In this document: positions 544-25,419 of the stretch, piece after piece
Layout of the letters: the number at the start of each line of letters is the position of its first letter
Position numbering within the stretch: position 1 is the stretch's first letter
Origin: Terramyces sp. JEL0728
Lineage: Eukaryota; Chytridiomycota; Chytridiomycetes; Rhizophydiales; Terramycetaceae
Direction of reading: 5' to 3'
DNA: 25,603 bases
Assembly: GCA_027603945.1 (NCBI GenBank)
Contig: JADIIU010000165.1
Span: 1 to 25,603 of the forward strand
Position numbers and translations under genes: made by a program
The notes under the pieces: generated by a model
The model's input: only the letters and a program-made list of their open reading frames with translations
Databases searched by the model: none
What the model was told of the DNA's origin: nothing

Positions 544-2000
544 ATGGATTCCCAGTGTTTGGATTATCGATCGACCACAGTATGGAGCACAGCCGCACTG
601 TTGTTATTAGTATTTGTGGAGACTAATATTTATCGTGCAAGACCAATTACCCTCCCAAAAATACTCTCCAATATTCAAAAATACAACTTTATAATACGGA
701 TACCATCCTTTGAAGTACATTTCTTTACAGTGATCCATACGGCTATTTACTTTGCAGTGCTGATATACTTTTCAGTGGTGAACTTTGACAGAGAGAATGA
801 CGGAAATTTCCCCCGGTTTGCGTATATTGCTCTTGTCCAATTCGCTATAGCACCGGTATTGGCTTTACGCAACTCTCCGCTCACTTTTATCGGATGCTCG
901 TACGACAAAATGGTGTACTGGCATATTATTCTTTCTACAGTGGGTGTAGCCTACAGCATCCTCCACGGTAGCTTGTATCTCTACGAATGGAGCCAGTATG
1001 GAGGTAAGTTTTATTCACAGTAGGTATTTCGTTCTTTCTCGACGCCGATCCACGCTACAAGTATGGCCTGGTATCAGGCGGGGTAGTTTGCTTGATATTC
1101 CTCACCGCCAACTTTATCTTTAGAAGATTCTTTTTCAAAATCTTCAAATTTGTTCACCTGGTATCTTATCCATTGTTGTTGGCATTTCTGTATCTGCATA
1201 TGAACAACTGCACCCTCCGATTCATCTTGCCTGCATTTGTGCTTACAGTTCTGGATTGGGGTTTGCGTATCTTCAGGTTTATGATTCCAACCTCAGTGCT
1301 GAGGAGCGAAAAGGCAGGGCCAGTTACAAAATTAACTCTGAAAACATACATGAAAACCACCAAGCCTGGCCAGTGGTTCCTTGTATATGCTCCACCTTTT
1401 GATATCCATCCATTTAGCGCTACAAGCACAACTTTCAAAGGAGAAGATGCACTCTCCTTTGCAGTTGCTCCTTACGGCAGCTTCACAAAAAATATTTCCG
1501 ACATTAAACACTTCAGATTGGATGGGCCGTATGGGAATTCCTTTGACAATATCCTCAAACACAAACATATCGTGCTTATCGCCGGTGGAATTGGCGTGAC
1601 ACCACTCCTGAGCATTGTCCATTTTGCAAAGAAGCTGTCAGTTGAAGCTTGCGGAATTAATATCAACTTTGTGTTCATTGCCAGATCCATCAACATGGTC
1701 GAAGCTTTTGAACCAGAACTGGACAAAGTGGCTCAATTTTGTAATCTGGAATGCTACATCACACAAATAGATGCTCTACGGAATAACATGAGTAGTAACT
1801 ACGGATTTTCGATAAAGGTGGGCCGTCCTAGCATCCGCGAAATTTTGGCTTCATCTAAAACTAATTCCACTGAACGGGAAACGATAGGCGTTGGTGTTTG
1901 TGGCCCTCGTGGATTAATTATTGATGTGAAGGAGGCAGCGCTTCGGGAGGCCGGCTATGACACTCAATATAGTGTATACTCGGAGATTTTTAGCAGGTAG
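544..2000 (+). CDS. Ferric-chelate reductase / NOX-like transmembrane flavocytochrome
   Basis: Exons 544-1003 and 1024-2000 join to a 478-residue protein; the 20-nt intron 1004-1023 restores the frame. It is a member of the ferric reductase/NADPH oxidase superfamily, moving electrons from NAD(P)H through FAD and two b-hemes across the membrane. The four heme ligands are visible as two H-X13-H pairs: His127/His141 and His198/His212. The FAD-binding HPFS motif is at about 282-285, the nucleotide-binding GGIGVTP at about 341-347 and the C-terminal CGP at about 446-448. The family sequence LALRNSP precedes the first heme helix. Length and lack of EF hands fit a short FRE-type reductase better than a classical NADPH oxidase, but the substrate (Fe3+/Cu2+ or O2) cannot be decided. 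It lies between two phosphate transporters. AATAAA occurs about 12 nt after the stop. Confidence 0.88.
1004..1023 (+). other. Ultra-short intron with CAGTAG tandem acceptor
   Basis: The intron is gtaagttttattcacagtag. Cutting at the final TAG gives a 20-nt intron and ...Tyr-Gly-Gly-Ile-Ser; cutting at the internal CAG gives 17 nt and an extra Val. Both keep the frame. The 20-nt choice fits the size of the other introns in the window. Confidence 0.8.
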
Positions 2001-2129
2001 CTCGGATATTCAATAAACTCGTTCTCGCGGTGTGAGGATCTTGACAACATTGATAAATTCGCCTATTTGATATCAAGTGATATAAATTATCATTCTAGTA
2101 TCGATATTTTCTGTCGTGGATTCAACTTG

Positions 2130-2150
2130 CATTTGTTTGATAAACAAATG
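2130..2150. promoter_or_regulatory. 21-bp perfect palindrome upstream of the second PHO84-like gene
   Basis: CATTTGTTT, a 3-nt centre (gat), then AAACAAATG form two perfect 9-bp inverted arms, 76 nt before the start codon at 2227. Such symmetry suits a dimeric transcription factor; the ATAAACAA core also resembles a forkhead site. It is not the CACGTG site of yeast Pho4. Function is inferred from position only. Confidence 0.4.
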
Positions 2151-2226
2151 TGGATTGCCAATACCTTGGAAAACGTGCGAGAGCATCCACCTATTTAAGG
2201 AAATGGATTTACAAAATTAATCGCGA

Positions 2227-3761
2227 ATGGCAACTGAAGATAAAGATATAACGGAATTAGACGTTCGAGAACAAGCTTTGAAGGAATTAAATGAAGCTAA
2301 ATGGGGTGTCGCTCATTGGCGCGCTATACTAGTAGCTGGGTCTGGATTCTTGACTGACTCGTACGACAACTTTGTTATCGGTATTATGACAACTATTATT
2401 GGATATGTTTACTTTGGATGGAACAAGAACAAAATTCCAGATTTCGATAACGGGTGGTTAAAAGCTGCCTCGTCATGGTAATTATCGTTCATATTAGGGG
2501 TAACTTGACTGGACAATTCGTTTTTGGTATCTTGGGAGATATTTTAGGAAGAAAGAAGATGTACGGTATCGAATTGATTATTTTGATTGTCGGCGCCGTT
2601 GGTTGCGCTCTTGCTGCTCCACCAGCCAGAGGATTCGGGTTTGCTGGTATTTTAGGGTTCTGGAGATTCATTCTTGGTGTAGGTGTAGGTGGAGATTATC
2701 CAGTATCTGGTGTTATTACCTCTGAATTCGCCTCAACCAAGAATAGAGGTACCATGATTGCTTTGGTCTTTGCTATGCAAGGTGTCGGCATCCTCCTAGG
2801 TTCAGCAGTGTCTGTTTTAGCGCTATTGGCTTATCAAGACATGATTCGTTCGGATCCTATAAACCTAGATTTTGTATGGAGAGTCATGGCCGGCTTTGGT
2901 TGTGTCCCAGCACTCTGCGCAGTCTACTTTAGGCTGACTATCCCAGAAACCCCACGATATGCACTCGATGTTGAAAAGGATGTTGCAAAAGGTGCAGCAG
3001 CAGCCAGACAATTCATGAGCAACAAGATGACCATTGTCCATGAAGAAGAGCATATTTCACAATCAACAGAAAAAAAGAAGCCTTTCCACGTCAGCTTTAT
3101 CGAGTACTTTGGCAAATGGGGCAACTTTAAAGTACTGATTGGTACTGCCATGACTTGGTTCTTCTTGGATATCGGTTTCTACGGTACCAACTTGAACACT
3201 TCTACCATCATTTCTGCTATTGGCTGGGGTGCTCCTCCAAGTCCTGCTGCACCGTATGATGTAATCTGGAACTTGGCTGCTGGTTCTGCTATAGTAAATT
3301 TGGCTGGTAACTTCCCTGGCTACTTCTTTACTGTATTCTTTGTTGACAGAATCGGCCGCAAGCCAATTCAATTCCTTGGGTTCGCAATGTTGACCTTGTC
3401 TTTCTTATTCATGGCCATTTTCTACAACACACTCACCAAGAATGCAATTGGCGCGTTCGTCTTCTTGTATTGCTTTGCTCAATTCTTCTTCAACTTTGGT
3501 CCAAACTCTACTACTTTTATTATCCCTGCTGAAGCCTTTCCAACCAAAGTACGATCCTCTGCCCACGGCATCTCTGCTGCAGCCGGCAAGGCTGGGGCAA
3601 TTATCGCTGCTCAAGGGTTTGATCCTCTTAAAACTCAAAGCGGTGGAATCTCCTTGCTATTATGGATCTTCTCGGGATGCTGCCTCCTTGGATTCCTGTT
3701 CACATTCCTGGTTCCTGAAACCAATGGCAAATCATTGGAAGAGTTAGGAGATTACGAATAA
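2227..3761 (+). CDS. PHO84: PHO84-like inorganic phosphate:H+ symporter (second copy)
   Basis: Exons 2227-2477 and 2498-3761 give 504 residues. The 20-nt intron 2478-2497 splits the Trp codon of SSWGNLTGQF and is precisely absent from the third copy at 21256, which reads straight through the same residues: direct evidence for the splice. Family hallmarks are GSGFLTDSYDNF in TM1 (Asp44), GGDYPVSG in TM4, LDIGFYGTNLN in TM7 and the ETNGKSLEELGDYE tail. The three Asp residues in these motifs match those lining the phosphate/proton path of the fungal transporter PiPT. About 12 TM segments and a hydrophilic central loop (about 260-290) are seen. It is a tandem paralogue of the partial gene at 1-433, separated by the ferric-reductase-like gene. 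Predicted to import phosphate at the plasma membrane. Confidence 0.95.
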
Positions 3762-3821: not shown

Positions 3822-5297
3822 ATGGCTTCGCCAAATGTAAAATACAAAATCATCATATTATTAACGTCATTGATACCAGAAGCCGTCGTAGATGGAACTA
3901 TTATACCGCTGTTTCCGTTTATGGTTCGGTTCCTGCTTCCAGACGAGCCTGAATCATCTGTGGGTTATCATGCTGGATTATTAGGATCCGCATTTTATCT
4001 CCCTCTGTTTTTAATGAACGTAGTATGGGGAGGTGCCTCGGATAAATATGGACGAAAAGTACATTTAGTTTAATGTAGCCAATTTTGCTGGTTGGACTAG
4101 CAGCTTGCGCGATCGTTACGTTAATTCTGGGATTCAGCCAATCGTTCGCACTTACTTGGATATGCAGATTTGTTGCTGGATTCTTTGGAGCTAATTCAAC
4201 CGTAGCTAAAGGGATGATTGGAGATATTGGTAAATTTCTTTAATGTTCAGCAAGAGACCAACGAAGCAGGACGTGGGGCTATGTTTTTTATGGAAGTGTT
4301 TATGGGGTCACTCAAATGATTGGGCCTTTATTGGGCGGATTATTGGCCAATCCAGCCGATTTATATCCTGGGGTTTTTGACAAGAACGGGCTATTTGGAC
4401 GGTAATCCTAAATAATCCAGATATCCATATTTACTGACGTGCTATATCGGCGTTGCTCTTGCTGTGGTGGATTTCTTTATAATCAAACACTATCTGATTG
4501 AAAAAAATACATATGAACAAGTGGATGATATTGACGACTTGGATTCCTTTGAAATGGAATTATCGGAGAGCTTCAACGAAAATTCGTTGGACGAAGGAAT
4601 ACGACATAAAAGAAGGACGTTGTCAGGTACAGAAATAGAATTGTCCATGGAGCAAGTTCAGCCGGACGAAGATGAGGAATCAGCACGGTCTGCAAAGTTT
4701 ATATTCTTGTCATGGAAGACACTTACGCCGATATTACTCTATTGCCTCATTGCATACGTTAATATGAGCTATGTTACCGCACTGCCACTGTTCTTTTCGG
4801 CATCCAGAGACACTGGCGGGATAGAGATGAACTCTAGAGACACTGCATTCTCATTCACAGTTAGCGCAAGCTCTAAACTGATTACTCAATTGTTCTTTTT
4901 TGACAAGCTCCTTTTTGCACTCAAAACGCCAAAAGCAGCTTATCAATTTGGAATGCTATTGTTGGTACCAATGTTTTTGATGATTACAGTATTATCCAGT
5001 CTGGATAACTTTAGATTTGTAGTTATCTTGGCGATTATGGTGGGAATCGGTATATCAGAAGCACTGGCATACCTCGCCGTGATGTTACTGATAACAGAAT
5101 CGCAGATACCGCAAAATTTAGGGCTGGCACATGGGTTGGCAAGCACTTTATCTGCATTGGCACGAACCTTTTCACCAGCAATAAGTGGTTTGGTGTGGGA
5201 ATTGGGTGTAGGCATGAAGATGCCGGGCTTGGTGTTTATCTTGGGTGCATGTATATCTGTTGCTGGTGTATTTGCAGCAACTCTACATAGAAATTAA
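3822..5297 (+). CDS. MFS transporter, ZIFL1/YCR023C-like drug:H+ antiporter type
   Basis: Four exons (3822-4058, 4079-4229, 4251-4401, 4421-5297) join to 471 residues; the introns are 20, 21 and 19 nt. The MFS motif A GGASDKYGRK is at residues 70-79 and is followed across the first splice by PILLVGLAACAIV. Around the next junctions the protein reads ANSTVAKGMIGDIARD, GYVFYGSVYGVTQMIGPLLG and NPADLYPG, which resembles the ZIFL (zinc-induced facilitator-like) / yeast YCR023C group. A charged central loop (about 215-270, rich in Asp and Glu) separates the two six-helix halves. Without splicing there are stops after each piece. The substrate cannot be told. It starts 60 nt after the phosphate transporter stop in the same direction. 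Confidence 0.88.
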
Positions 5298-6700: not shown

Positions 6701-7365
6701 ATGTTCAAGAAAAGAAAAATTGACTTAAAGTACTGCGAATATGACCTAACCACAATGGAAGACACCAGAGGTGGATTCTTGCTTCCTCCTGAAGAAAAAG
6801 TAAACGAGGCTGAAGAGCAACAAGTGCAATTGACGGAAGAAGGATTGATTTGCCAGCATTGTCAATCAATAGATATCGATGTGAATATTTACAAATACTA
6901 CAAGGAAGCAGTTTGTCTGAATTGCAAAAAGGATAAACCAGAGCTGTATTCCCTGCTTACTAAAACGGAATGCAGACAAGACTACCTGCTCACTGAAAGT
7001 ACTTTGCCATTAACCAAGGTGAATTGAGAGATCAAAAGAAACTCCCAGTCTGGATAAAACCGAATCCGCACAAATCTACATATTCCAACATGCTACTATA
7101 TCTTCGTAAGCAAGTTGAACAGTTCGCAATCGATAAATACGGATCGGAAGAGTTGCTGGACAAGGAATTTGAAAAGAAAGAGAAACTCAAGGAAGAGCGC
7201 AAGGTAAAGAAGCACAAGAAGCAAATGAATGAGCTGCGGAAAAAGACTAGAACGTCGTTATGGGATTCACGGCAGATGGAAGAGGATCACAAGCATGATT
7301 ATAGAGAGCATGGAGATGTGCTAAAGTGTAGCTGTGGGCTTGAAGTTGAATTTGAAGAATTTTAA
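6701..7365 (+). CDS. RAD14: XPA/RAD14 nucleotide-excision-repair DNA damage verification protein
   Basis: Exons 6701-7018 and 7039-7365 give 214 residues. The 20-nt intron 7019-7038 joins ...STLPLTK to KLPVWIKPNPHKSTYS. The XPA zinc finger is at Cys51, Cys54, Cys72 and Cys75, with C-X2-C-X17-C-X2-C spacing identical to human XPA. It is preceded by the EYDLTTMEDTRGGF-type segment and followed by the DYLLTES, PNPHKSTYSNMLLYLRKQVE and WGS-like YGSEELLDKEF regions that bind damaged DNA. The C-terminus is highly charged (Lys/Glu). XPA verifies lesions and positions TFIIH and RPA in the nucleus. The protein is short because the N-terminal tail found in vertebrates is reduced. The intron lacks a clear YTRAY motif, but its length and frame effect match the rest. 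Confidence 0.93.
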
Positions 7366-8001: not shown

Positions 8002-9433
8002 ATGGCAGAGAACGAACAGGATGTCAGCATCGACGCACCGCTCATCAGTAGCCACAACGACTACTTGTTGGACCAAACAAGCGTAATAAAGAGCCGCACC
8101 ATTCCTTGGGAAGTAACACTCGCTAATAAAGGGATATCAAAAAGCATCATTAATCAATGAACAAGAATTATCACTCATCCGGCAATTCCAACCAACAATT
8201 ACGGATAAACAGCAATATGCGACACTCTTTATTAGTTTGTTGAACAAATTGTCGCGAGTGGATACTCTGCAATCGATTCTTGTTTTGATTGACGACTTTA
8301 TTCAACAAGATGGGGTTGCGCAATTGTTTTTATCTGATCCAGCAGTTTTCACTTCGTTCAACAAGTAGTTTTCGTTAATAGCAGATTGTTGACAAAGGAG
8401 GATGAGTATATTCAGCTTAAGGCTGCAAAAATCTTGATTTTCTTGCTTGGAGAGTCAAATTCTTCTTACCCTGCGGATCCAACAGAGCTATTGACTTGGG
8501 TTGTATTCCAATTAGCCAGCACTAACACAAATGTTGTTGATATCAGCTTGCAATTCTTGCAGTCGTTGTTGGCCATCAATCTTTTTAGAAAAGAGTTTGT
8601 GAAGCAAGCGGACGGAGTCATGGCGTACGATTTATCTGATATAGATTGTTGACTATCTTGAACAAAACTGGACAAACGCCGCAAGTGCAATACCAAGCAA
8701 TTTATTCCATCTGGCTGCTATCATTTGTAAAGGAAATTGCCGCAGATCTTGAAAAGTGCTTTACTTTTAATTATAGGAAATATCATGTCATTCCTGTATT
8801 GCGAGATATCGCCAAATCTGCAATCAAGGAAAAAGTTGTAAGAATTGCAATTGCTACGTTCAAGAACATGCTAATTAATGCACCAGCAGAAAATATAATT
8901 CCAATGTTGGGGCACAAGTTGCTGGGAGCAATCGAAACTCTGTCTGTTCGTAAATGGTCTGATCCAGAAATCACTGAAGATTTGATGTATGTCAGGGAAG
9001 AATTATCGCACCACGTTGCCTCACTATCGTACAGTTTGATTAATCTAGTACTTTTGACGAATATTCCACTGAAGTTTTGTCAAGGAGACTCGAATGGTCC
9101 CCACCTCATCTTTCCGAAATATTCTGGAAACAAAATAGCAACAAACTTAATGATAACCAATTCGAACTTGTCAAGTAATTCTTGCTTATTTAGAACACTA
9201 GTTGATATTACCAAGACAAGTGAGGATCCAGTGGTGCTTGCAGTCGCTGCATATGATTTAGGACAGTACTGCAAGTATGCCAATAACGCCAAAAAGTAAT
9301 TCATATTGACTGTAGTGTTCTAGTTGAAACTGGCGGCAAAACCGCTGTAATGGGTCTGATGGCACACAAAAACTCTGATGTTCAATACCAAGCATTAGCA
9401 GCAGTTCAAAAATTCATGATGAATTCTTGGTAA
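8002..9433 (+). CDS. VMA13: V-type ATPase subunit H (V1 sector)
   Basis: Eight exons (8002-8112, 8132-8364, 8385-8624, 8645-8755, 8777-9028, 9049-9174, 9194-9295, 9316-9433) join exactly to 430 residues; the seven introns are 19, 20, 20, 21, 20, 19 and 20 nt. Family landmarks run in order: LLTKEDEYIQLKAAKILIFL, then PQVQYQAIYSIWLLSF, KEKVVRIAIATFKNML, LEWSPPHLSEIFWKQN, DPVVLAVAAYDLGQY and the C-terminal HKNSDVQYQALAAVQKFM. These form the HEAT/armadillo repeats of subunit H, which couples V1 to V0 and silences free V1 at the vacuole. The LEWSPPHLSE segment appears only when introns 9029-9048 and 9175-9193 are removed. The stop overlaps AATAAA. Confidence 0.93.
8756..8776 (+). other. Stop-less 21-nt intron in VMA13
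   Basis: This 21-nt intron is a multiple of three and has no in-frame stop, so retention would only insert seven residues (CFTFNYR region) between Glu-Lys and the conserved KYHVIPVLRDI. Removing it gives LEKKYHVIPVL, closer to the family. It is the only such intron I found here. Confidence 0.75.
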
Positions 9434-9494: not shown

Positions 9495-10503
9495 ATGTCG
9501 TCATACTCATTGCAGGATACTCCTGATTGGAACGATCCTACTATCGAAATAATCACTGCACCAGGATATTATTACGTATATGGCATAGCACTTCCGATGC
9601 TCCAGATCAGCTTTATTTGTTCAATGTATATAGTGTTTCGCGTTATTCGGCGATTTCATGTAAGAGGAAATTGTCCGACACATGTACGGTTTCCGATGTA
9701 CACTGCACTAACCGATATACTACTCTATTTAGGAAATATGAACAATCTATTGTACGGATTTCTTTGGGGGCACACACGGCCAGATAATATCGGATGCCAA
9801 TTTGCAGCTTCGTTTGTATCGTTTGCAGTATTTCTAAATATGTCTATTACCTGCTCGTATGTATTGAATATTTACCTTAACGTGTGTAAAGAAAGGTATT
9901 TCGACACTGGGGTTTGGGATTGGAAGCTTATAGCTGCTTGTTCTACATTTGCAATAGTCATGGCTTCAATAGGGTTTCCATTCACCGGCCCTTGTTATTA
10001 TTGGTAATAAGCGATAACCCAGGTGTTATTTGAAAGCAGATGGCGGGAAACAGTTTGCTTGGATATTCACCGCGGTAGAAGTTACGCTATTTAACACTAC
10101 TGCGGTTTGTTTTTATTTGATTTACTCTAAAGTTGATTCAATGGAACCAAAATCTCAAAGTACCGCGGCACGAAAATCAGTCTTGAAACGCGAAACTGTG
10201 CGCAAAATCCGGCCATATATTATTTACTGTAAGTTGCACTAACCTAGTCTTTTTTCAGTGGTTTGGAGTAGTTCCCTATATTGTCGGCCACCTATTCGAC
10301 TATAGACCGACCTGGTAGCTGTGAATTAATGCAGGGTATTTGCACTTGTGTGTTTCTCCATCAACCTTGGCGGAATTTTGAACGTTGTTAGTTTCGTTGG
10401 CAACCAGGGATATTCTGACAATAAACTGGAGACAAAAAGCCATAACACTGACACCTTCTCTATAAAAGAAGTCCCAATCAGCACCTCACGAGTGCTGAAT
10501 TAA
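9495..10503 (+). CDS. Seven-transmembrane receptor-like protein (tandem copy 1)
   Basis: Four exons (9495-10003, 10023-10228, 10248-10314, 10335-10503) join to 316 residues; introns are 19, 19 and 20 nt. Seven hydrophobic segments are clear: YGIALPMLQISFICSMYIVF; a second with YLGNMNNLLYGFLWG; a third starting GCQFAASFVSF; a fourth starting WDWKLIAACSTF; FAWIFTAVEVTLFNTTAV; YIIYFFQWFGVVPYIVGH; and WVFALVCFSINLGGILNV. Cysteines in GCQFAA and GPCYYWC could form the usual extracellular disulfide. The layout recalls the cAMP-receptor/Git3 class of GPCRs, but no family motif is certain. The C-terminal tail is short and polar (Ser/Thr/Lys). The adjacent gene is a paralogue with partly different intron positions. 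Ligand unknown. Confidence 0.8.
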
Positions 10504-10863: not shown

Positions 10864-11988
10864 ATGTCAGCATACGCATTAGAAAATACTCCGGATTGGG
10901 ACGACCCCACTATTATGATGATTCCGATGCCAGGCTATTACTATGTGTAATATATTACTAAGGTAGATATGGAATCGGATGGCCACTAATGCAATTGGGA
11001 TTTCTCGGTTCTATATACATTCTCTTTCGTGCGTGGAACAGGTACCGTTTGAGAGGGAGCTGTCCAGCTCAAGTTAGATTCCCAATGTATATTGCAATCA
11101 CAGATATCATGCTCTATGTCGGGCATATGAACAATCAGGGATATGGTTTAATATGGGGGCATACAAGACCCCAGAATCTTGGGTGTCAAATGGCAGCAGC
11201 ATATGTCGCATTTGGAATCTTCTGCAACATGGCAATTACAACTTCCATAGCTGTTAATAGCTATTTAATCATTTGCAGAGACTGGCATATTAATACCGGC
11301 GCGTGGGACTGGAAGATTATTGCTGTTTGCGGGACGTTTGCATTTATTTTTGCAGCAATTGGAGCACCATTTTCGGGACCGTGCTTGTATTGGCAAGTAT
11401 CCATTTAACCAAGGTGTTATTTTAAAATCACTGGAACAAAGGCATTGGCGTGGATTATGGGATCTATCGAAGTAGGGCTGTTCAACATTACTGCAGCTTG
11501 TTTCTTTCTTGTAATCAAGAAAATTGACAGTCTCACTATGGCCACAGCCCAATCAGAAATGATGCCATCTACTATGGATGGAAAACCAGCAGCAGCACCA
11601 AAAATTGACAGGAAGGCAGAATTGAAGCGAAGAACGGTGAAAAAAACCATGTTCTACATTATTAATTGTAACCAACTTTAATCCTAGATTTCATGCAATG
11701 GTCGGGAACTGTTCCGTGTATTGTTGATTTCTAATTTTAGATGTTGTCGGACATTTGTTTGACTATCGCCCAGACTGGGTATTTGTACTTGTCAATATCA
11801 GTATCAACCTCGGCGGAATATTGAATGTATTTTCATATATATTCAATGAAGGCTGGTCCGACCATCCAAAGAGTCCTGCGGGTGCTAAAGTGAAAACCGA
11901 ATCGCAAGCGGGCAAAGTAGCATCTTCGGCACCATCTTCGACGCCTACTGCTAACGAAGAAGATGAATTCGACTCTGACGAAGATTAG
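10864..11988 (+). CDS. Seven-transmembrane receptor-like protein (tandem copy 2)
   Basis: Five exons (10864-10946, 10967-11392, 11414-11667, 11688-11717, 11741-11988) join to 346 residues; introns are 20, 21, 20 and 23 nt. It starts MSAYALENTPDWDDPTI, matching MSSYSLQDTPDWNDPTI of copy 1, and conserves PAQVRFPMYIAITDIMLY, MNNQGYGLIWGHTRP, GCQMAAAYVAFG, WDWKIIAVCGTF, GPCLYWCYF and NISINLGGILNVFSY. Seven hydrophobic segments are seen, and the tail is longer and acidic (ends EEDEFDSDED). The second intron has a GC 5' splice site; the fourth, 23 nt, is the longest here. Exon 4 is only 30 nt. Coding length before the shared GPC(Y/L)YW junction is identical (509 nt) in both copies. Likely a surface receptor; ligand unknown. 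Confidence 0.8.
11393..11413 (+). other. GC-AG ultra-short intron
   Basis: The 21-nt intron begins gcaagt and ends accaag, splitting a Trp codon (TG|G). Copy 1 has a GT-AG intron of 19 nt at the same codon and phase (10004-10022), which fixes the boundary. No GT donor nearby gives an open frame. Confidence 0.82.
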
Positions 11989-12090: not shown

Positions 12091-12652
12091 TCAACTAATT
12101 ACCTTCAACTCGTTCAGCACTTTTCCCTCATCATCGTATACCAGACAATTATTCTTCCAACAGCCGAACTTCAGTGCTATTTCCTTGTTTCTGCTATACT
12201 CTCTTTGAATATCGTCTTTTGAACCTCTCCAGTTTTTATACAGTTGCAAATTCTGCCTGCCGATCAATCTGATTGTTTTCAATCGCAATTCCTGCGGCGT
12301 CTTGTTAGCGATCATATACCCATTCTGGTAGTAAGCTCTGCGATATTCTTCTAAATTGTCCTATTCCGTGTTCCCCAATTCCTTGAATCAGCAGCTCTTT
12401 TTGTTTATCTGTCCACTGCCTCACAATCGGCTCTGTCAATACCATTCCTTTTGGAGGCTGGAAATATTCTTGATTTAGAGTTCCGTCTGAATTGATCATG
12501 TTTTTAGTCTCTGGAAACTCATTACTTTTGCAAAATAACAGCCTCGTTTTGTTGATCCAGTCCCGATCTATTTGCATTTTATTCAAAAAACAATTAGACT
12601 CATTACTTTCTGGTAGCTGACCGGGAAGATCAGAGCGTGAGACCTCACTCAT
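12091..12652 (-). CDS. Myb/SANT-like domain protein
   Basis: On the minus strand, exons 12652-12320 and 12300-12091 join to 180 residues; the 19-nt intron is 12301-12319. The central part, QWTDKQKELLIQGIGEHGIG and QFRRISQSLLPEWTPQELRL, has the spaced Trp and helix pattern of a single Myb/SANT repeat, followed by KTIRLIGRQNLQLYKNWRG and a basic-acidic tail. I chose ATG 12652; an upstream TTG codon continues the frame by six residues, but no earlier ATG does. One repeat without an obvious activation domain suggests a DNA- or histone-binding protein, function unknown. It is divergent from SPEF2 (137 nt between starts) and convergent with the second receptor. Confidence 0.72.
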
Positions 12653-12789: not shown

Positions 12790-15700
12790 ATGTCCAAGAT
12801 TCTGACCCAGTGGTTAAAACAAGACGTAGGGTTTCCCACGGCAATAAACCCTACAGATTTGGATCAGGAGTTTAGTTCCGGCTACAATTTTGGGAAACTG
12901 CTGTCTACTCTGGGAATTCAGGATGACTTTGAACAGCACTATCTCCCTGGGAATACGACTGAAATTTTGATTAAAAATTACATTTCATTGGAAAGCACTC
13001 TGAGACAAAAGTTAGGAATCAAATTATCTGGAGGATTTGCTTTAGATTTAATAAATAACAAGCCAGGGAGCACTTCGAAATTATTGTATCAGATAAAGAG
13101 CGCGATGGAAATACTACCCAACGACCATTTCGTTCAATCCAAACATATATTCAAAAAGAAACCTAAATTTGATTCATATCCGTCGTCGCCAGTTGGTAAT
13201 TTCTACTAAATTAGAAGGAGAGTCTGCAAACTTAAATATCAAAGAAAATCCAGTGTTGCCATATGATTTACACTCAGTAGAACATTTTGCGACAATATTA
13301 AAGTCCAATTTGAAGAGAGCTGAATTCAAGTACCAGAAATCATCCAAATTACCAGTGGAGATTAAGAAAAAAGAACTTCCGCCAATTGTCAAAAATATCC
13401 CAATCAAAGTTGAAGCTCCGGTTACAAAACCATTTGCTATTGTTCCTGAAGTGGAGCCTGTAAAGCCAATTCCAAAAAAAGCTAAAATTCCAGATGTAAC
13501 ATGAACTGACAATAGATAAAAATGATTCAAGATATAAGCAATAGAATAGAAACATTTGAGCAACGGTTGTTTACTGGAGAGTTGAAAAAGGTGGATTCAA
13601 ATGAAGATTTAATAGAAACCAAAGAATCAAAGTCTGATTTAGTGCAATTTATCAAAACAAAATCAAATATGGATCCCTCATTACATCTAAAGGAATTGCG
13701 AAAAATTGTAAACAATCCTGGCTTTGACACCACAGATGAAACTAGACAATATATAGAAAAGATAAGAGTACCTTTCCTTAATATCAGGTTCATCGACAAG
13801 AAACAGAAAATTCGAGAAAGGAACGGGAAAAGCAAAGAAAAAAGATTCTACTATCTTGCCAGCAGGTCCAACAATCTATTGAGAAGGAAAGGCTGAACGA
13901 GTTGTTACAAAGCAAGTTGCTCAGGCAATCAAAGCAAGAAAGACGTATCGCTGAGCAGTAAATTTTTGATAATGTAGACTTTTACAAATTAGACACGAAA
14001 AGGAAGTTGTACACGAAAACCATCTATATAGAGAACAGCAGTATGCCGCCCAAAGACAAAAGGAGTACGAAGAAGCATTGGAGCGAGAACATGAACTGCA
14101 CGCAAATGCGCAAGGCGAATATAGACAACACGTCTTTATGCAAATTGAGCAGCACCGTGAAATTATTAATCAAAAGAAGGCTCGCAAACATGAAAGAAAT
14201 ACCAAATTCGTTGGAAAAATTGTGGACCAGATTTTAGAGCTATCATTTAAAGTACTTTAAGTTAACGCAGGTGGTTGATTTCAAAGTATTAAACGACAAG
14301 AAAGATGTTCCAGCCAAAATAATGAGGGATTGGAAAACCATCTTTGTTAATTGTGTAAACTTGGAAAATTACAAGGAAATTCCACTGGATAAGGATATTA
14401 TTCCGAAAAGTATCGAAGAAGAAATCAAAGATGGAAAAGAGGATGTTCTGGAAGCTGTCAAGATATTGGACAAGGAGGAATTTAACGAATATTTGACGTA
14501 CAGCGGAAATTGGTTAGCTACTGAAGAGTGCTTTCTTTCTAACACAGAAATCTTATTAAAAAGAACGAAATTCTTGCCCAGGCTGTAGAAGATGTAATTA
14601 AGCTGACTTCTCAACCTATTCAAGTACATCAGACAGCAGTGTTACCTGCAGTACCGCTACGAATCGTCCTTATTGGTAAGAAATACTCTGGTAAAAAAAC
14701 CTTGGCAAATGCTCTCGCTAGCACTTACAACATGGGTATAATACGACTCGATGATTTGGTAAAGGAGGCGATCGGAGTTGCTGATATCACGGTCAAGAAA
14801 CCCAGGGAAAAGTCATCAAACGGGGAAAAGAAGCTGTCAAAGCAACAAATCGGTGCTAAATTGCAGCTGACCATGATGGAAGGGCTGAGTCCCGATGATA
14901 ATTTACTTGTTTCACTGGTTGTAGAAGCAATGAGTCGCGAACCCGAAAAGCCTGGCGGTTATGTCTTGGTCGACTTTCCAAAAACCAGACAGCAAGCCCA
15001 ACTATTAGAGCGGGAAATTTCTGGGTAAATTTGAACTAAAAGTAGATATGAAGACCCTAAACCTGTAAAGAAGGGCGATTTAAAGAGATTGAGAGACAAA
15101 GAAAAAGCATCTACCAGTGCAAAAAACAGGTCGCTGGTTGCTTCGTTCGAAAATTCCGGTGAAACAACTACAACTGCGCCAATATCGGGGTTGGATGCCG
15201 TATTCTTGTTGAATGTCACCAACGAAGTTGCAGTAAAAAGGGCTGTCGGGAAACTTGCGGATCCTATTACCGATAAAAAGTATCACATTGAATACAATCC
15301 ACCTCCAACAGACCAACCAGGAACATTTGATCGGTTGGTGCATGAAGAGGACCAAGCTAGAGCCATGAACCAATTGCAATATCATTTGGCAGCATTTGAA
15401 GAAGAGGAAGAGTCTCTCAGAGAATGGATTAGTCAATTCAAAACCCTCAAAGTTATCGACGCCAATACTAATACTGCCGAGGTAAAGCATGCCTCGGAAG
15501 CAGTATTGAATCCAATTATCGCAAAGATCAACGAAAAAGAAAAAGAAAAGGAGAGCCTGAACGCTGAAGAAGGCAATACACTTAAAATTGAAGAAAATGC
15601 AAATTTGACCTCGGAATCGGACCTGACAAAACCAAGAGAAACTAGTTCAGCAAGAAACAAGGAAAGGATTCAAAGTCCAAATGAAGCAAAAAGGGCTGCA

Positions 15701-18206
15701 ACCCTGAAAGTTGGAGCAGGTAAACGTTGAAATGAGCCTAGATTTACAAAAGAAAAAGTCAGAGATTGCTTTACACACAGTTGGATTGGCTACCTCAGTG
15801 CCAGAAATCCCAGCAGTAGAGCCAATTAGCACTCACATTGTAAGAGGCAGCACCTCAGCTGGAAAAAAGCTACCTTCAAAGGAATTGGCTGAAATTTTAA
15901 TCAATAGATGGAACACTATTGAAAATACTTACACTGATATATTAAAATTCACCTTTCGATCTATCAGGAGACAAAAGCAAGAGTCATACAAATATTTTTA
16001 CGATACTAAAGTAAAATTCTCGGATTTCTTGAAAAGACCTGACACTGAGCAAGATTTGGTTGAGGCATTTCAGCAAGAATACAATGCGATCGAAGAAGAT
16101 TTTAGGAGCGATCCAGATGTAAAAGCAGAGCTGCACCAAAGAGTTGAAGAACTAAGAGAGAAATTATGGGATATTGCGGACAAACGAAGAGACGAAGCTG
16201 AATCAGAAAGAATTTCTATTATTGAGGATCGATGGGTGGAAGATCAATCTTACATTGTTGCAAATATTTATATCTCGATGATTCAAGCGGAGGCTGACAA
16301 GTATTTATCTACAAGACAATTTTTACTGGACTTTTTTAAAGATGCTTATTTGATCCCATTCGCAGATCAAACTAAAAGTCTAATTAAAATCCCTTTTGTA
16401 GGGGGAACAGCTACTCCTCCAATTGAAGTTGGAGGTCCAATGATCGCAGCAAGCGAAGCAATATCTTCCCATCGAAAAGACGTGGTTCAAAGCCAGACTG
16501 CAAAAGAAGTAACAAAGACTCCAACAAAACCAACGCAAGCTAAAGGTGGAGCAGCAAAGAACGCTCCAGCAGCCAAAGTTGCAGTTGAAACAGCTGCAAA
16601 ACCAGCCCCTCCACAAGGAGAAAAGGAAGTATTCACACTTGATCCCGATAGCATGAATTTTGCGGAAATGCAGAATGCTCTTGATTTCCTTTACCAAGCA
16701 CTTTCAGCCCCAGACTATTCTTTGGAACTAACCGCTCCAGAGCCCCCTAAAGACAAGAAAAACAATGTCGTGGAAAAAGGTATTTGAAACTAATGAAGAT
16801 GAGGTTGAAAAACCACAAATTGCAGAGTGTCAAAAGGCTGTTGAAACCGAAGAAGCCATTCTTCGCCAGAGAGGTGAAAAGATTAAAGCACACGCTTTGG
16901 AAGGACTGAGAGATCTCAGAAACAAAGCTGTTGAGGTGTACTTGCTGCTGGATGAATGGATAAATGTCCGATACAAAATGGAAATCGAAACTGCAAAGGA
17001 TTTGGCAAATGTTATCAAGGAAGCAATCGAAGCTGAAGCTAAACTTCCAAACTTGATTTTGTTAGAAGGAGACAAACTATCAATTGACTATTCCACTTTA
17101 GTTCTTCAACCCGAGCCTGAACCTAGACCGGAAAGTCCTGCAGAAAAGCCTCGTAAATATTTACTGACCGTAGTGCCTGACCAATATACGATTTTACAGC
17201 TGCGAAATTTGGCAAAGCAGCTTTATTTGATTGCCCCTTCTGGGAATATTGCGATTAAATATTTGACTGATTTCCTCACAAAATCTGCGATAATGTCTGC
17301 TTCAGCAGATGTTTTGCCTGAAGGTTATGCAAATGCAGAACAATATCAGATTCTCCAGACTATTCAATTATTGGATCCATTTGAAACTGGTTATGTAAAT
17401 TGGCAAAAGTTTTTATTATTCCATGCCAGATTACTGCCTGTAGATGAATTTCCAATCCAAGAAATGCATTCTGCTCTCGAAAAATTAGAGTCCTATAAGA
17501 ATGGAGCCTGCTCTAGGGAAGACTTTTTAAAAGTCCGACTTTGGTTTGAAAATGAGCCCTCTGTTGTAAACAAGCGCATATTTGATAGAGCTGGTAAGCT
17601 CAAAATTGCTCTAGTTGGTAAGTTGTTGTTGATATAGACATATTTGCGTGTCCTGGAGAGTCTCTACCTGCCCCGGCGCCAACTCCAGAGATTATAGAAC
17701 CGCACAAAGAAGAATCTGCACCAGCGACACCAGATAAGTTGGAAGAAACCCCACCTACCCCGCCGGTGATGGAAGTGCCGCCTGCAGTAAATGTATTGAA
17801 CTTTATGCTGTGTTGCTGCAGTGATGAAATTGCACAAAACGGATTGGAGAAAGCGTTCAAAGTACTTCAAGATGAGAATGGCCAGTGCACTAGGGAACAA
17901 ATTATCTATATTTTCCACCACTTTATTCATCTGATACCTTCAACGAACAGAATGGACAATAACCCTGAATTCGACAATCCGTACCCTTCTAAACGGTTAA
18001 ACGAGGTTTTTGATGCTGCTCAGCTGGGAGATGCAGCAACCTTGGAAGAAATGGTTAATACACTTCAGCAGTCGACCTTGGCAGAGTGGCTGTTCTGCCC
18101 TATGTATCAATTGGAGGTACCTTTTTTTAATTTCTAGGATCTGACTATTGGATTTAGTTCCAGACCATCATCTGGAAAGCAAAGTGCTAAAATCACTAAT
18201 CCATGA
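12790..18206 (+). CDS. SPEF2: SPEF2/CPC1 flagellar central-apparatus protein
   Basis: Twelve exons (12790-13195, 13215-13495, 13516-13767, 13788-13957, 13978-14251, 14271-14527, 14548-15024, 15046-15719, 15742-16779, 16799-17617, 17638-18116, 18138-18206) total 5196 nt, 1731 residues, near human SPEF2 (about 1820). Introns are 19-22 nt. The N-terminal calponin-homology-like domain (SSGYNFGKLL, GIQDDFEQHY, KPGSTSKLLYQIKSAME) is at 1-110. Coiled-coil stretches follow (about 230-470; LLRQSKQERRIAEQ). An adenylate-kinase-like domain has the P-loop GKKYSGKKT at about 590-598, then VLVDFPKTRQQAQLLE and a GYEDPKP-type turn. A long helical part, a Pro/Ala/Lys-rich linker (about 1160-1200) and EF-hand-like pieces (DPFETGYVNWQKFL, DENGQCTREQI) end the protein. 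SPEF2/CPC1 belongs to a projection of the C1 central-pair microtubule, so the organism very likely makes motile flagella. Confidence 0.95.
15025..15045 (+). other. Ultra-short intron with AAGTAG tandem acceptor
   Basis: The intron starts gtaaatttg and ends aaaagtag. The distal TAG gives 21 nt and Gly-Tyr-Glu-Asp-Pro, the family turn; the proximal AAG gives 18 nt and an extra Arg. Both keep the frame. Confidence 0.75.
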
Positions 18207-18243: not shown

Positions 18244-18249
18244 TTTATT
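18244..18249 (-). terminator. Poly(A) signal overlapping the HisRS stop codon
   Basis: On the minus strand AATAAA contains the TAA stop (18247-18245). SPEF2 ends only 38 nt away on the other strand, so the two 3' ends probably overlap. Confidence 0.5.
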
Positions 18250-19804
18250 TTCCCAGCTTCTTTTTCAAATACGAAATCATTTCGGCTCTGGTGACTGTTT
18301 CTTCGTTTCCAGTTGCCAATTCTTTAACCTTGACAACCCCTTGCTGCACTTCAGCACTCCCGATAATAATAGCAAAAGGAATCTGCTGTTTTTCACAAGC
18401 AGCTAGTTGATTCTTAATTTTTGGATTCGCTTTGTAAGTAAATTCAGCATTAATGCTGTTCTCCCACAATTCTTTACAGATTTTCATACGTTCAGCTAAT
18501 TGTCCATCAACTGCGGAAACATATACTTCGGTAGATGTAGTTTTCACACTTTGAGATTTTTTTGCCATCAAAATTGCATATACTCTTTCAATACCAATTG
18601 ATACGCCGACACAGGGTACTTCATTTCCGGAAAACATACCAACCAATCCGTCATAGCGGCCACCAGCTGCGATTGAGCCAACACCGCTGGTTTCTTCACT
18701 TGTAGAGTTGAAAACAGCTTCGTAAATCACACCGGTATAATAATCTAAACCTCTTGCCAGGGAAAGGTCAAAGGAAATCTAAATTAATCAGGTCCAACCT
18801 TGTCAGCAATGCCAAAGATATCCAAGTAAACGAAAAGCGTCTTCATTTCATCGATGCCGGCTTTTGCGCTTTCATTTGAATATAAAGTAGCATCCGCAAT
18901 CAATTTTTCACACAATTCAGCACCTCCTTTCAACGATACATATTTTCCAATACGATCGGCAACTTCTGGATCCAAACCTTTCTCTCCAGTCATTTCCTTC
19001 TTGACCTCTTCCCATGGCATCTTGTCTAATTTATCAACGGCGGATGAAATTGATCTAATTTTCTCCTGAGGAACTCCGCATACTTGGAACATACCGTCAA
19101 GTATTTTTCTGTTGTTCAACTACGATTAGCATAATTTACCTTGACAAAGAACGAGCCAATATCCAACTTTTCCAATATTTCTATCGCAACTTTAATTACT
19201 TCTGCATCCGGAACCATAGGTTCATAATTTCCTGCAATATCGAAATCACATTGGTTGAATTCTCTCATTCTTCCTTTGTTGATGGATGGATTGTCTCTGC
19301 GATATACTTTTGCAATATGATATCTCTTGATATTTTGAATATCCCTGTTCATTGCCAAGAAACGAGCAAATGGGACGGTAAGATCATATCGAAGAGAACA
19401 AATTTCACCACCCTGATCTTTCAAGTCATAAATCAATTTGGAGTCTTCGCCATATTTTCCTGACAAGATTTCCTTCAATTCAAAAACAGGAGTATCGATA
19501 GTGACAGCGCCGTGCTTCTTGAATACGCTACGTTAGCATTGTATTACGATTTGATTGTATCAAACATGTGTTCCCTTACAGCCATTTCCTTGTCATTGAA
19601 GTCTCTGGTGCCCTTTGGAACTTTAACAGTAATTTTGCTCTTTTGCGAGTCTGACGATTTCCCAAATTGAGCTTTTTGAACATTCAGCTCCTTCAACTGC
19701 GATGCCAGTGCAGCTTCCTTTTCCTTGTCCCCTTTTACCAATTTCTTTTGGTCTTTGATTGCTTCAATCTGTGCCTCCAATTCACTTAAATTTGCAAATG
19801 TCAT
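18245..19804 (-). CDS. HTS1: Histidyl-tRNA synthetase (class II)
   Basis: Minus-strand exons 19804-19548, 19527-19140, 19119-18799 and 18778-18245 give 499 residues from ATG 19804; all three introns are 20 nt. An N-terminal WHEP-like coiled region (residues 4-50) precedes [20 protein letters not shown], class II motif 2 ([15 protein letters not shown], then [20 protein letters not shown]), the histidine-specific [11 protein letters not shown] and motif 3 (GVSIGIERV). The C-terminal anticodon-binding domain ends in YLKKKLGK. It charges tRNA-His. An in-frame ATG at 19897 would add 31 residues (MRVLALIYPS, then SKKFNKIF and RISSRLLSRRI), basic and free of acidic residues, like a mitochondrial presequence: one gene could serve cytosol and mitochondria, as in yeast HTS1. 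The third intron has an unusual GTTGG donor. Confidence 0.95.
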
Positions 19805-20100: not shown

Positions 20101-20582
20101 ATGCCTATCAGCTATATTACCCGAACGCTAACATTCTGTTCAGGACATCGGTTACACTCTCCTCACCTCTCTGATAAAGAAAACTTTGAAATATTCGGAA
20201 AATGCAACTCTCCAAACGGTCATGGTAATATGCGCTAACGCAGGCCACAATTATACAGGTATTATTCAAATAATTCAGTACAAGTAACAATCAAAGGACA
20301 TATAGACCCCGTTACTGGAATGGTGATGAATTTGAACGAGTTGCGAGAGTACATGGAAGTCGCAATTCACGATCAACTCGACCACAAGAATATTGACAAG
20401 GATGTTGCTTATTTCAAAGAGAATACTAGGTAACTGATGCTAAAAGTAGTACTGCAGAGAATGTTGCAGTGTTTATCTGGAAGGAGATGATCAAAGTCTT
20501 GCCAAAGGACCGGGACTACGAGTTGTATGAAGTTACTCTTCAAGAAACCGGCAATAACACCGTAACTTACAAGGGAGAATAA
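20101..20582 (+). CDS. PTS: 6-pyruvoyl-tetrahydropterin synthase family protein
   Basis: Four exons (20101-20224, 20244-20258, 20279-20429, 20450-20582) join to 140 residues; introns are 19, 20 and 20 nt. Exon 2 is only 15 nt. The zinc-binding histidines are His16 (FCSGHRLH), His41 and His43 ([20 protein letters not shown]), with catalytic Cys35. [20 protein letters not shown] supplies the Asp/His pair, [11 protein letters not shown] the middle helix, and [12 protein letters not shown] the conserved substrate Glu. The enzyme turns dihydroneopterin triphosphate into 6-pyruvoyl-tetrahydropterin for tetrahydrobiopterin; bacterial QueD relatives make a different product, so a related role is possible. 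No exon is long enough to stand out alone. It is divergent from HisRS. The stop overlaps AATAAA. Confidence 0.93.
20430..20449 (+). other. Ultra-short intron with AAGTAG tandem acceptor
   Basis: The intron is gtaactgatgctaaaagtag. The distal TAG gives 20 nt and Asn-Thr-Ser-Thr-Ala-Glu, matching the family; the proximal AAG gives 17 nt and one extra Ser. Both are in frame. Confidence 0.75.
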
Positions 20583-22963: not shown

Positions 22964-23830
22964 TCAAGATAGCGATGGAATTGTTGGTGCATCAGTTGGA
23001 GCTACGGTCTTCTCAACCACAGTTACTGCTTTTGGTTTTAATTTCTTTACCCCAGACAGAGCCAATTTCTTTAATTGAAGGAATATTAGAACCATAAAAG
23101 ATGCATGGAAGCTTAGTATAGAGTCGATAAGCAAGAACAGTGAATGAGAGCCAGAGTTGTCAAAGTAAATCGCGTACATGTACAGCGCAGCTCCGGTCCA
23201 GTCCATTAGAACGCATACCAGGTTCAGCACTACAGTTTGTTTGTAAGAGTTTGCCGTTGCTAGTTTTTTTGATATTTTGAATGAATAGACCAAATGTGTC
23301 AAATAAAGTGCCTGCACATTGTCGTATATGATCAGTAGTATCGCATGCAGCAGCGATGTAAAAGCGTTGGTCTATGGTCAAGTAATGCCTACCCAATCTA
23401 GAACTGGGGGTATCGGATCAAACCCGACAACGATAAATGCAGGGCCCAACAGCAATATGGAAATGATAATAAATGTAATTCTTAGGCTCGTGATTAATTT
23501 AGTGGTGATTTTTTCATTGAGACATTTGAAAATGGCAAGTATTTCAATGTTGAGTAAAACTATACAAGCTGATAATAGAGATGAAAACATAGCCGCAATT
23601 TTGAAATATATTCTAGGGTGTAGAGTGAATCCATACAATCCGTATCCTACTAGCTGAATGAAATTGATTGCTTGCATTAAATATAATCTGTTTGACAAAG
23701 TTTGCTGTTTGACATCTGTCAAAACACGATACAGCACGGATAGTATTAAGACATTGGCAATTATGAATGCGATTACGGACACTATATCTACTGTGTTATC
23801 CAGTGTAATAACGTAAAATGAATCTGGCAT
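22964..23830 (-). CDS. Seven-transmembrane protein of unknown function
   Basis: Minus-strand exons 23830-23393 and 23371-22964 give 281 residues; the 21-nt intron (23372-23392) contains an in-frame TGA. Seven hydrophobic segments are visible, including VSVIAFIIANVLILSVLYRV, LSACIVLLNIEILAIF, LRITFIIISILLLGPAFIVV, SLLHAILLIIYDNVQALYL and LIDSILSFHASFMVLIF. The last part of segment five is rebuilt only by splicing. The C-terminal tail is Lys- and Val-rich. The topology is receptor-like, but no GPCR signature is recognised and there is little similarity to the two receptors at 9495-11988. It converges on the phosphate transporter. Confidence 0.7.
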
Positions 23831-24066
23831 TAGGCGGAAAGAGTGACATCAGCAACCATGTCAAAAATGCGAAATGCCTGGCGACTAAATTATTGGGTTT
23901 GATGGATATTTTACAGTTACGAACAGAATTCAGAATATAATTCGGTGCAACAAAGATTCTGCGATCGCATTGAATTATGCAATTATGCGGATTTATTTTT
24001 GGAGTTTAATCTTGGAAAGCAAGTTGATACGAATATCACTACTGCAAGCCGCAGTAAGTTAAAGTG

Positions 24067-24072
24067 TTTATT
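24067..24072 (-). terminator. Poly(A) signal overlapping the dehydrogenase stop codon
   Basis: On the minus strand AATAAA contains the TAA stop (24070-24068). Confidence 0.5.
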
Positions 24073-25419
24073 GTCTCCATTCGTTACTCTTTACCAACCA
24101 CTTGATAACTTGTAAAGATCGGTGTCCATAACAAGGATTGACTTCCAATGACCGCTTATCAGCCAATTCAACAGCAATAGCTTGACTGGTCTTGCCAGTC
24201 TTTGCAGATCCGTCCAATACATGTAGAGTGAGGTTGAAGATAGAGTTATCCCAGTCTTTACCCAAATGCAAATCTAATTTTGGATCATCATCAATGATTC
24301 CCATATGTTCATCTGCACAATTGACTATTCCCATTCGGTTTACTAGGAAATCAGGGACATAGATCTTGCCCAGATTGTGTAAATGTAAATCGTCCGTCTT
24401 CATATTCAATAGTTGGTTGTTTGCCGCACCACAGATAATCTTTGCTTTGATTTGCGGGATGGTTGTAGGATTCAAAATACCGCCAGTTGCACAAGGACAC
24501 ACTGCATCAACATCCTTGAACAAAATAGAATAATCTGATTTATCTACTATATGCAATTCAAAGTTCTTTCCAGAGTATTCATTCTTGATTGATTCTGCTC
24601 TGTGTGCATCAACATCAGAAGCAATAACTTTACTAACGCCAGCTTCAAACAAAAAGTGAATGACAGGCATACCAACATGTCCTGCTCCTTGTACTGCAAC
24701 AGTAGACCCTTTCAAAGATTTACCTTTGTTAGTATTATTTACCTGCATGTTGAAAAGCAGCTTCTAATCCTTTGATCACACCTCTAGCAGTAGCAATAGA
24801 AGGATTCCCAGATCCGCCCAGTTCAGCAGGAATACAGGTGGTGTGTCTAGTTTTTGAAAAAATTGCTTTCATATCATTGACATTTGTTCCTACATCTTCT
24901 GCAGTGACATAGCAACCGTGTAAACTAGACATGAATTCTCCGTATTCTTCATAAGCTATTCTACGAGCTTCGAGGTCATCTGTTGGTGCAAGACCAGCAC
25001 CAGTATTACGAGCCATAACGCCTGCGTCAGTACAAGTTACCTTTACCGCCTCCCCACCATATGCCTGCCAATGCATTCTTGTGTCCCATGCCTTTAGCCA
25101 ACCGCAATCCGTCCCTAATAAACCCGTTCATGTTATCATAAACCCAATTACGAACACCACCCGCTCCAGGACCACGAAAGGTCTTGTGAATAGCAGCAGA
25201 CTGCAGTACACCGGATTTTGGCCCAATTTGAGCAAAATACCCTTCGTGATAATCGTAATCATCTGAAATATTCAAATCAGAGAGGATATCTGCAATTGGC
25301 TGGAGTATTTGGTGAGAGGCAACGAATTTATTGTTTTCTGTTACGAAATAGAATTTCTTGATTTGGTTTTTGGCTAGGAATTCAATGAATTGAGTTGGAG
25401 TTAAATTAAGCAGATCCAT
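24068..25419 (-). CDS. Leucine/phenylalanine dehydrogenase-like enzyme (Glu/Leu/Phe/Val dehydrogenase family)
   Basis: Minus-strand exons 25419-25041, 25021-24743 and 24723-24068 join to 437 residues; both introns are 19 nt. The catalytic lysines are Lys114 (AKGMGHKNA) and Lys126 (WWGGGKGVM), and the catalytic Asp sits in TAEDVGTNVNDM. GSGNPSIATARGVIKGLEAA and the Rossmann motif VQGAGHVG match leucine dehydrogenase rather than the larger glutamate dehydrogenases. The enzyme deaminates a branched-chain or aromatic amino acid to its keto acid with NAD(P)H. FRGPGAGGVRNWVYDN replaces the usual GPALGG(C/T)R, so substrate is uncertain, and the N-terminal 60 residues are not recognised. The family is mostly bacterial; old transfer is possible, but the gene has the local type of introns. 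I chose ATG 25419. Confidence 0.87.

Follow-up and report, generated by a model that had tools for sequence, protein, structure and literature searches.

Contig C165 of the nuclear genome of Terramyces sp. JEL0728 (15.0 Mb, 231 contigs), a chytrid placed by the NCBI taxonomy in the Chytridiomycota, Rhizophydiales, Terramycetaceae, carries 41 segments of 19-23 nucleotides (nt) in 13 genes, and its sequence suggests that these segments are excised as introns. The contig in its whole length of 25,603 nt is called the window below. Taken with a sample of the remaining genome, the segments very probably represent spliceosomal introns of the U2 type, reduced across the whole genome to a length close to a mechanical minimum. 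A U2-type spliceosome is indicated because the introns display splice-site and branch motifs and because the genome holds a U2 small nuclear RNA (snRNA) as well as genes for Prp8, Slu7, Prp18, and a U2AF65-like protein.

Introns of the window

The window introns were placed by hand models together with a decoder, and three introns in the gene for V-ATPase subunit H were added from an alignment of homologues. All 41 introns that had been proposed earlier from the DNA letters alone (the sequence-only reading) were re-derived, with lengths of 19 nt (12 introns), 20 nt (21), 21 nt (6), 22 nt (1), and 23 nt (1). Its statement that summed exons give exact codon multiples was also borne out: each of the 13 spliced frames begins with ATG, has one terminal stop, and is a multiple of three, including the SPEF2-like gene, for which 12 exons and 5196 nt were reproduced. 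If retained, 32 of the 41 introns would bring an in-frame stop into the message, and the length of 35 is not a multiple of three; a single intron (8756-8776) would cause neither a stop nor a frame shift. Phases 0, 1, and 2 are represented by 10, 14, and 17 introns, respectively. Forty introns are bounded by GT-AG and one, at 11393-11413, by GC-AG. The introns are as follows.

1004-1023, + strand: 20 nt, NOX/ferric-reductase-like gene (544-2000); 17-nt in-frame alternative
2478-2497, + strand: 20 nt, PHO84-like transporter (2227-3761); spanned by a Sugar_tr match, paralogue at 21256 uninterrupted
4059-4078 (20 nt) and 4230-4250 (21 nt), + strand: MFS transporter (3822-5297); both spanned by an MFS_1 match
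4402-4420, + strand: 19 nt, MFS transporter; Pfam scan and frame
6999-7018, + strand: 20 nt, XPA/Rad14-like gene (6701-7365); spanned by an XPA_C match
8113-8131, + strand: 19 nt, V-ATPase subunit H (8002-9433), intron 1; homologue alignment, frame
8365-8384, + strand: 20 nt, V-ATPase subunit H, intron 2; homologue alignment, frame
8625-8644, + strand: 20 nt, V-ATPase subunit H, intron 3; homologue alignment, frame
8756-8776, + strand: 21 nt, stop-free, V-ATPase subunit H, intron 4; homologue alignment
9029-9048, + strand: 20 nt, V-ATPase subunit H, intron 5; homologue alignment, frame
9175-9193, + strand: 19 nt, V-ATPase subunit H, intron 6; homologue alignment, frame
9296-9315, + strand: 20 nt, V-ATPase subunit H, intron 7; homologue alignment, frame
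10004-10022, + strand: 19 nt, GT-AG, seven-transmembrane (7TM)-like gene 1 (9495-10503); homologues, frame
10229-10247, + strand: 19 nt, 7TM-like gene 1; homologues, frame
10315-10334, + strand: 20 nt, 7TM-like gene 1; homologues, frame
10947-10966, + strand: 20 nt, 7TM-like gene 2 (10864-11988); corresponding codon of 7TM-like gene 1 uninterrupted
11393-11413, + strand: 21 nt, GC-AG, 7TM-like gene 2; paralogue and Boothiomyces proteins
11668-11687 (20 nt) and 11718-11740 (23 nt), + strand: 7TM-like gene 2, flanking a 30-nt exon; homologues, frame
12301-12319, - strand: 19 nt, MYB-like gene (12091-12652); frame, motifs
13196-18137, + strand: range of all 11 SPEF2-like introns (gene at 12790-18206); frame and motifs only
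13196-13214, 13496-13515, 13768-13787, 13958-13977, + strand: SPEF2-like introns 1-4
14252-14270, 14528-14547, 15025-15045, 15720-15741, + strand: SPEF2-like introns 5-8
16780-16798, 17618-17637, 18117-18137, + strand: SPEF2-like introns 9-11
19528-19547, - strand: 20 nt, HisRS (18245-19804), intron 1; matches deposited protein
19120-19139, - strand: 20 nt, HisRS, intron 2; matches deposited protein
18779-18798, - strand: 20 nt, HisRS, intron 3; matches deposited protein
20225-20243 (19 nt) and 20259-20278 (20 nt), + strand: 6-pyruvoyl tetrahydropterin synthase (PTPS, 20101-20582); PDB 1b66
20430-20449, + strand: 20 nt, PTPS, intron 3; PDB 1b66 alignment
23372-23392, - strand: 21 nt, third 7TM-like gene (22964-23830); frame and motifs only
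24724-24742, - strand: 19 nt, amino-acid dehydrogenase-like gene (24068-25419); frame and motifs only
25022-25040, - strand: 19 nt, amino-acid dehydrogenase-like gene; frame and motifs only

We provisionally take the gene at 544-2000 to be NOX/ferric-reductase-like and that at 24068-25419 to be amino-acid dehydrogenase-like; the name SPEF2 is the label given by the sequence-only reading and is likewise provisional.

Homology, paralogues, and deposited gene models

That every splice restores conserved family sequence, as had been claimed, was tested for part of the genes; the NOX, SPEF2, MYB, third 7TM-like, and dehydrogenase genes rest on frame and splice-site motifs. In the MYB-like gene, a Pfam Myb match (20.7 bits, under the cut-off) stops before the junction at 12301-12319, and homology is no test there. 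Boundaries are settled by homology in HisRS, PTPS, V-ATPase H, and the first two 7TM-like genes, and left ambiguous in NOX (1004-1023, 17 or 20 nt) and in several SPEF2 introns.

The spliced HisRS is letter-for-letter identical to the deposited Terramyces sp. JEL0728 protein HDV01_002136 (P0001). PTPS, in which an exon of only 15 nt (20244-20258) lies between two tiny introns, aligns with PDB entry 1b66 with one gap, located away from all three junctions. Outside the window, 20 multi-intron proteins were listed, of which five were compared with Pfam and four, plus the first part of a fifth, with PDB sequences. RuvB-like 1, assembled across six introns of 20-22 nt, is gapless over 449 residues, and the C-terminal two thirds of Sec23 (five introns of 20-21 nt) show gaps, none of them at junctions.

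V-ATPase H was aligned with the deposited Terramyces model (P0121) and with proteins of Boothiomyces, Globomyces, Gorgonomyces, Spizellomyces, and Kappamyces, the last without the 8756-8776 region. This alignment revealed the introns at 8756-8776, 9029-9048, and 9175-9193, the latter two of which cancel each other in frame. P0121 retains 8756-8776 as seven residues that are missing from the four homologues covering the region.

Paralogues show introns present in one copy and absent from another. The PHO84-like transporter occurs in three copies (1-433, cut by the contig end; 2227-3761; 21256-22794). Of the full copies, that at 2227-3761 has an intron at a codon that is uninterrupted in the copy at 21256, confirming what had been stated for the second phosphate transporter. 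In the neighbouring 7TM-like genes 1 and 2, introns of differing sequence share codon and phase at two sites, residue 169.7 of either protein and the mutually aligned residues 238.3 and 254.3; the first site holds a 19-nt GT-AG intron in gene 1 and a 21-nt GC-AG intron in gene 2. The deposited model HDV01_002135 (P0239; 9495-11988) was rejected: it fuses parts of both genes, mis-splices the GC-AG intron, and omits the 30-nt exon, which is present in Boothiomyces P0240. Deposited models thus hold some tiny introns correctly (HisRS) and mis-model others (V-ATPase H, 7TM). No Pfam family matched 7TM-like gene 2, and a search for its homologues returned six proteins, including one from Terramyces, two from Boothiomyces, and others from Kappamyces and Gorgonomyces.

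Length class across the genome

The first decoder, a hexamer coding model for GT-AG introns of 10-400 nt with neither a splice profile nor a length preference, was run on 20 stretches of 10 kb and the window, with four other dinucleotide pairs for comparison. The GT-AG lengths already peak at 19-21 nt, and the other pairs have no such peak. The second decoder learned splice and length profiles iteratively, intron length being free between 12 and 150 nt. It was applied to 36 stretches (298,174 nt, some 2% of the genome, sampled non-randomly), namely 25 large ones, including the window and two picked around tubulin matches, and 11 loci from family searches. It placed 299 GT-AG introns, of which 286 are 19-23 nt long (68, 132, 69, 15, and 2 of each length), 4 are shorter, and 9 are longer. 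When six decoy dinucleotide pairs took the place of GT-AG, the 19-23-nt share was 11/119, 11/108, 7/84, 16/127, 16/100, and 3/100, and total coding scores were lower. In a third pass over the 24 large stretches outside the window, with GC donors also permitted, 231 of 238 introns were 19-23 nt long; two were of 18 nt, and the others of 33, 35, 48, 58, and 115 nt.

The sequence-only reading had called for a genome-wide length survey, and the 36 stretches give a single narrow peak at 19-23 nt; its proposal of a genome-wide class of this size in a flagellated fungus-like nucleus is thereby supported, the genome being that of a chytrid. Plain proportion from the second decoder extrapolates to about 14,000 introns in the genome.

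Anatomy of the introns

Anatomy was examined in 288 introns of 18-23 nt, with an A+T content of 70%. Donors are GTA (260), GTG (17), or GTT (11), and acceptors are TAG (189), CAG (78), or AAG (21). Donor positions were counted in 107 introns from beyond the window: A makes up 60% at +4, T 50% and G 17% at +5, and T 72% at +6; elsewhere, G is the usual base at +5. A branch motif of the YTNAY type (score ≥5) is found in 285 of the 288, with the predicted branch A at position 14 (121 introns), 15 (132), or 16 (18) from the intron start and followed by 5 (148), 6 (117), or 7 (6) nt. The tail is of 5 or 6 nt in 265 of the 285 motif-bearing introns (93%); for shuffled interiors, the corresponding figures for motif and tail are 50% and 26%, respectively.

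Intron length splits into two near-independent parts, one up to the predicted branch A and one after it, a feature newly described here. The four common combinations occur 64, 51, 74, and 55 times, and independence is not contradicted (p = 0.89). Introns of 19 nt are mostly 14+5, those of 20 nt are 15+5 or 14+6, those of 21 nt mostly 15+6, and those of 22 nt mostly 16+6.

The hallmarks of U12-type introns are an [AG]TATCC donor and a CCTTAA branch sequence. Only one of the 288 introns has such a donor and two contain CCTTAA, and this type was rejected.

Splicing machinery

A U2 snRNA was found (140 bits) that keeps the branch-binding sequence GTAGTA. The genome encodes Prp8, scoring 774 bits across the PROCN domain, as well as the second-step factors Slu7 (matches of 139 and 104 bits) and Prp18 (109 and 55 bits), so that a Stentor-like absence of the latter two, which had been predicted, was rejected. 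The best match to the U2AF large subunit scores 251.7 bits with introns read through, below the curated 310.3. This U2AF65-like protein is encoded although a 5-6-nt tail has hardly any room for a polypyrimidine tract. At the gathering score, Rfam had no match in the window and U2 alone across 12 sources, and ARAGORN in bacterial mode found no tRNA in the window.

These findings bear on whether the segments might stay in the mRNA and be jumped over by the ribosome, through programmed frameshifting or translational bypassing. Bypassing elements are not known to carry a splice-site consensus of this kind. The GT-AG or GC-AG ends with a branch motif at a near-fixed distance, the presence or absence of introns between paralogues, and the occurrence of U2, Slu7, Prp18, and Prp8 in the same genome all speak for removal by splicing and make bypassing extremely unlikely.

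Proposed mechanism

Each intron carries a GTAATT-like donor (rarely GCAA), a YTNAY-type branch motif, and a mostly TAG or CAG acceptor, with little between them. Two short parts add up to the total length: the first reaches the predicted branch A within 14 or 15 nt, seldom 16, and the second takes 5 or 6 nt. In the mechanism that we propose, the donor would pair with U1 and then with U6, and the branch motif with GUAGUA of the canonical U2 snRNA. The donor takes up positions 1-6 and the branch motif approximately 11-15, which would leave some four nt between the U6-paired and the U2-paired part. In the lariat released, about 14-15 nt would form the loop and 5-6 nt the tail. Exons as short as 15 and 30 nt are flanked by introns, so recognition is probably across the intron (intron definition).

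Limits of the length class

Several observations weigh against a uniform class of tiny U2-type introns. First, 20 of the 41 window introns have another in-frame GT/GC-AG boundary at most 12 nt away, mostly giving a longer intron. Second, 13 of the 299 introns of the second decoder fall outside 19-23 nt: three are mis-decodings, two are seemingly real longer introns, two are of 18 nt, and six carry no verdict. A 48-nt intron in an importin-7-like gene on the - strand of stretch L030 (near 6820; GTAAGT...CTAACAATAG) is supported by homology, the alignment being gapless at the junction, and looks real on that ground; an epimerase-like gene in stretch L024 (near 1992) needs an intron of 26 or 35 nt for its frame, which also looks real. 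In view of these two, the length class has exceptions, and longer introns are probably still within reach of the spliceosome. Third, the acceptor profile of the decoder favours the branch position, so that the positional sharpness is partly built in and the contrast with shuffled interiors comes out too large; of the 41 window introns, 37 have the best motif 4-7 nt from the end, some of which were first located with that profile.

Fourth, the excess of GC-AG introns over those with other donors is modest. With GC donors permitted and positions +3 to +6 unscored, seven candidates were obtained, all of 19-21 nt and all starting with GCAA, while GA, GG, AT, CT, and TT gave 2, 4, 2, 2, and 4 introns, of which 1, 4, 1, 0, and 3 are of 19-22 nt. 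One of the seven, in L030, is contradicted by the importin alignment; the candidate in L027 competes with a 66-nt GT-AG reading, and that in L034 has no clear branch motif. The window intron at 11393-11413 is not among the seven.

Fifth, in searches of the genome, U6 gave two Rfam matches, one of 27.4 bits (E about 6e-4) and one of 26.9 bits (E about 8e-4), below the gathering score of 44, which we judged to be chance matches after inspecting one of them (L009); three conserved-core patterns of U6 had no match. U1 had no Rfam match, a result of this tool that does not show absence. U1 may have diverged from the Rfam model. The U6 result is odd: the gene may be absent from the assembly, diverged in sequence, or intron-split, and the idea of a tiny intron within U6 stays a guess, a pattern search of the genome for it having given none.

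The nearby boundaries and the few longer introns would fit a length class that is partly an artefact, real introns being more varied and short ones over-counted as easy to place between open frames. We consider this very unlikely, for decoding with neither a splice profile nor a length model already peaks at 19-21 nt, only 9 of 299 introns exceed 23 nt when lengths up to 150 nt are allowed, and the PDB alignments are gapless at the junctions.

Among rejected lengths, the mis-decodings are calls of 49 nt in the window, 14 nt in L025, and 115 nt in L012. The last is a fusion: with a 20-nt intron instead, the frame continues to FNDIFRLNYGY and a stop, which in our reading resembles the end of NTF2, to which a match was obtained. 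Window introns of 95, 102, and 126 nt from one decoder pass were dropped from the hand models, and two of these begin with an intron of 20 or 21 nt.

At the end of the window, positions 25490-25603 hold a short tandem repeat with units like GGTTATTTGCT that continues to the contig end.

Possible traces in Boothiomyces

Deposited proteins of Boothiomyces, which belongs to the same family (Terramycetaceae), suggest that the trait is older than Terramyces. In the V-ATPase H of Boothiomyces macroporosus (P0122), seven additional residues, LIHINNR, stand precisely where Terramyces has the intron 9175-9193. A back-translation by hand is compatible with a retained, stop-free 21-nt intron with a GTT start, an AG end, and a possible branch A 6 nt from the end. 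P0122 also ends in NAKK where the Terramyces intron at 9296 starts with GTAA, which is what translation into an unspliced intron would produce. The ten residues that precede Terramyces intron 1 are missing from P0122, as would be expected if too long an intron had been set there by mistake. The tiny-intron class would thus account for errors in deposited gene models of the Terramyces group.

These traces at orthologous positions also speak to the origin of the segments. Were they assembly insertions, or DNA eliminated before transcription in the manner of a ciliate macronucleus, neither such traces nor the conserved ends and branch motif would be expected, and the genome is a fungal one; we regard either origin as scarcely credible. 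More tentatively, and with considerable doubt, one may picture that in the Terramycetaceae (Terramyces, Boothiomyces), and perhaps in more Rhizophydiales, the spliceosome has been retuned to a near-fixed geometry (loop of 14-15 nt, tail of 5-6 nt) and rarely meets longer introns, with an altered or intron-split U6 and an altered U1, while keeping Slu7, Prp18, and the U2AF65-like protein.

Comparison with known systems

Terramyces sp. JEL0728, a saprobic strain of a culture-collection genus, would bring a genome-wide class of ultra-short introns into Fungi, and order-mates have been sequenced. It would set intron miniaturisation apart from endosymbiosis and from the absence of Slu7 and Prp18, would define two separate length rulers (donor to branch and branch to acceptor) that spliceosome structures must fit, and would offer a new test case for minimum intron size, its lengths being close to the shortest known for a spliceosome. 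In the open-access literature searched, we came across no description of a genome-wide class of tiny introns, whether for Terramyces, for chytrids, or for any other fungus. The available portions of PMC10639083 and PMC3569864 hold nothing on Terramyces intron lengths; the fungal intron survey considered, in excerpt, was PMC8476143.

Like Terramyces introns, ordinary fungal introns are U2-type and GT-AG. Microsporidia, which are fungi or close relatives, share relatively short introns with Terramyces (PMC10245619) but have few or no introns per genome and a reduced spliceosome. The list of tiny-intron systems in the sequence-only reading, which named chlorarachniophyte nucleomorphs and heterotrich ciliates, was incomplete: missing were the mikrocytids, with 16-17 nt (PMC10245619), and Paramecium and Nyctotherus, with about 25 nt. 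The latter two resemble Terramyces in having ultra-short introns only, but these are longer and the organisms are ciliates. Mikrocytos mackini and Paramikrocytos canceri share with Terramyces a very narrow length range and conserved sequence (PMC10245619); in contrast, they are parasites that live within cells, their spliceosome is reduced, and M. mackini has 224 introns, compared with the number extrapolated for Terramyces. Nearly the same length range, 18-21 nt, is given for the chlorarachniophyte nucleomorph (PMC10245619), yet this is a remnant endosymbiont nucleus with more than 800 introns, whereas the Terramyces genome is an ordinary nuclear one of 15 Mb.

In Stentor coeruleus, introns of 15-16 nt have a near-fixed length, GU-AG ends, an A at a fixed position, and a 5-nt tail (PMC9505925), and in all these features Terramyces is similar. 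The Stentor branch A, however, lies at position 10-11 without a strong consensus, and Slu7 and Prp18 are entered as N/A for Stentor in the excerpted part of PMC9505925, whereas Terramyces is a fungus that encodes both factors and whose introns of 19-23 nt display a clear branch motif.

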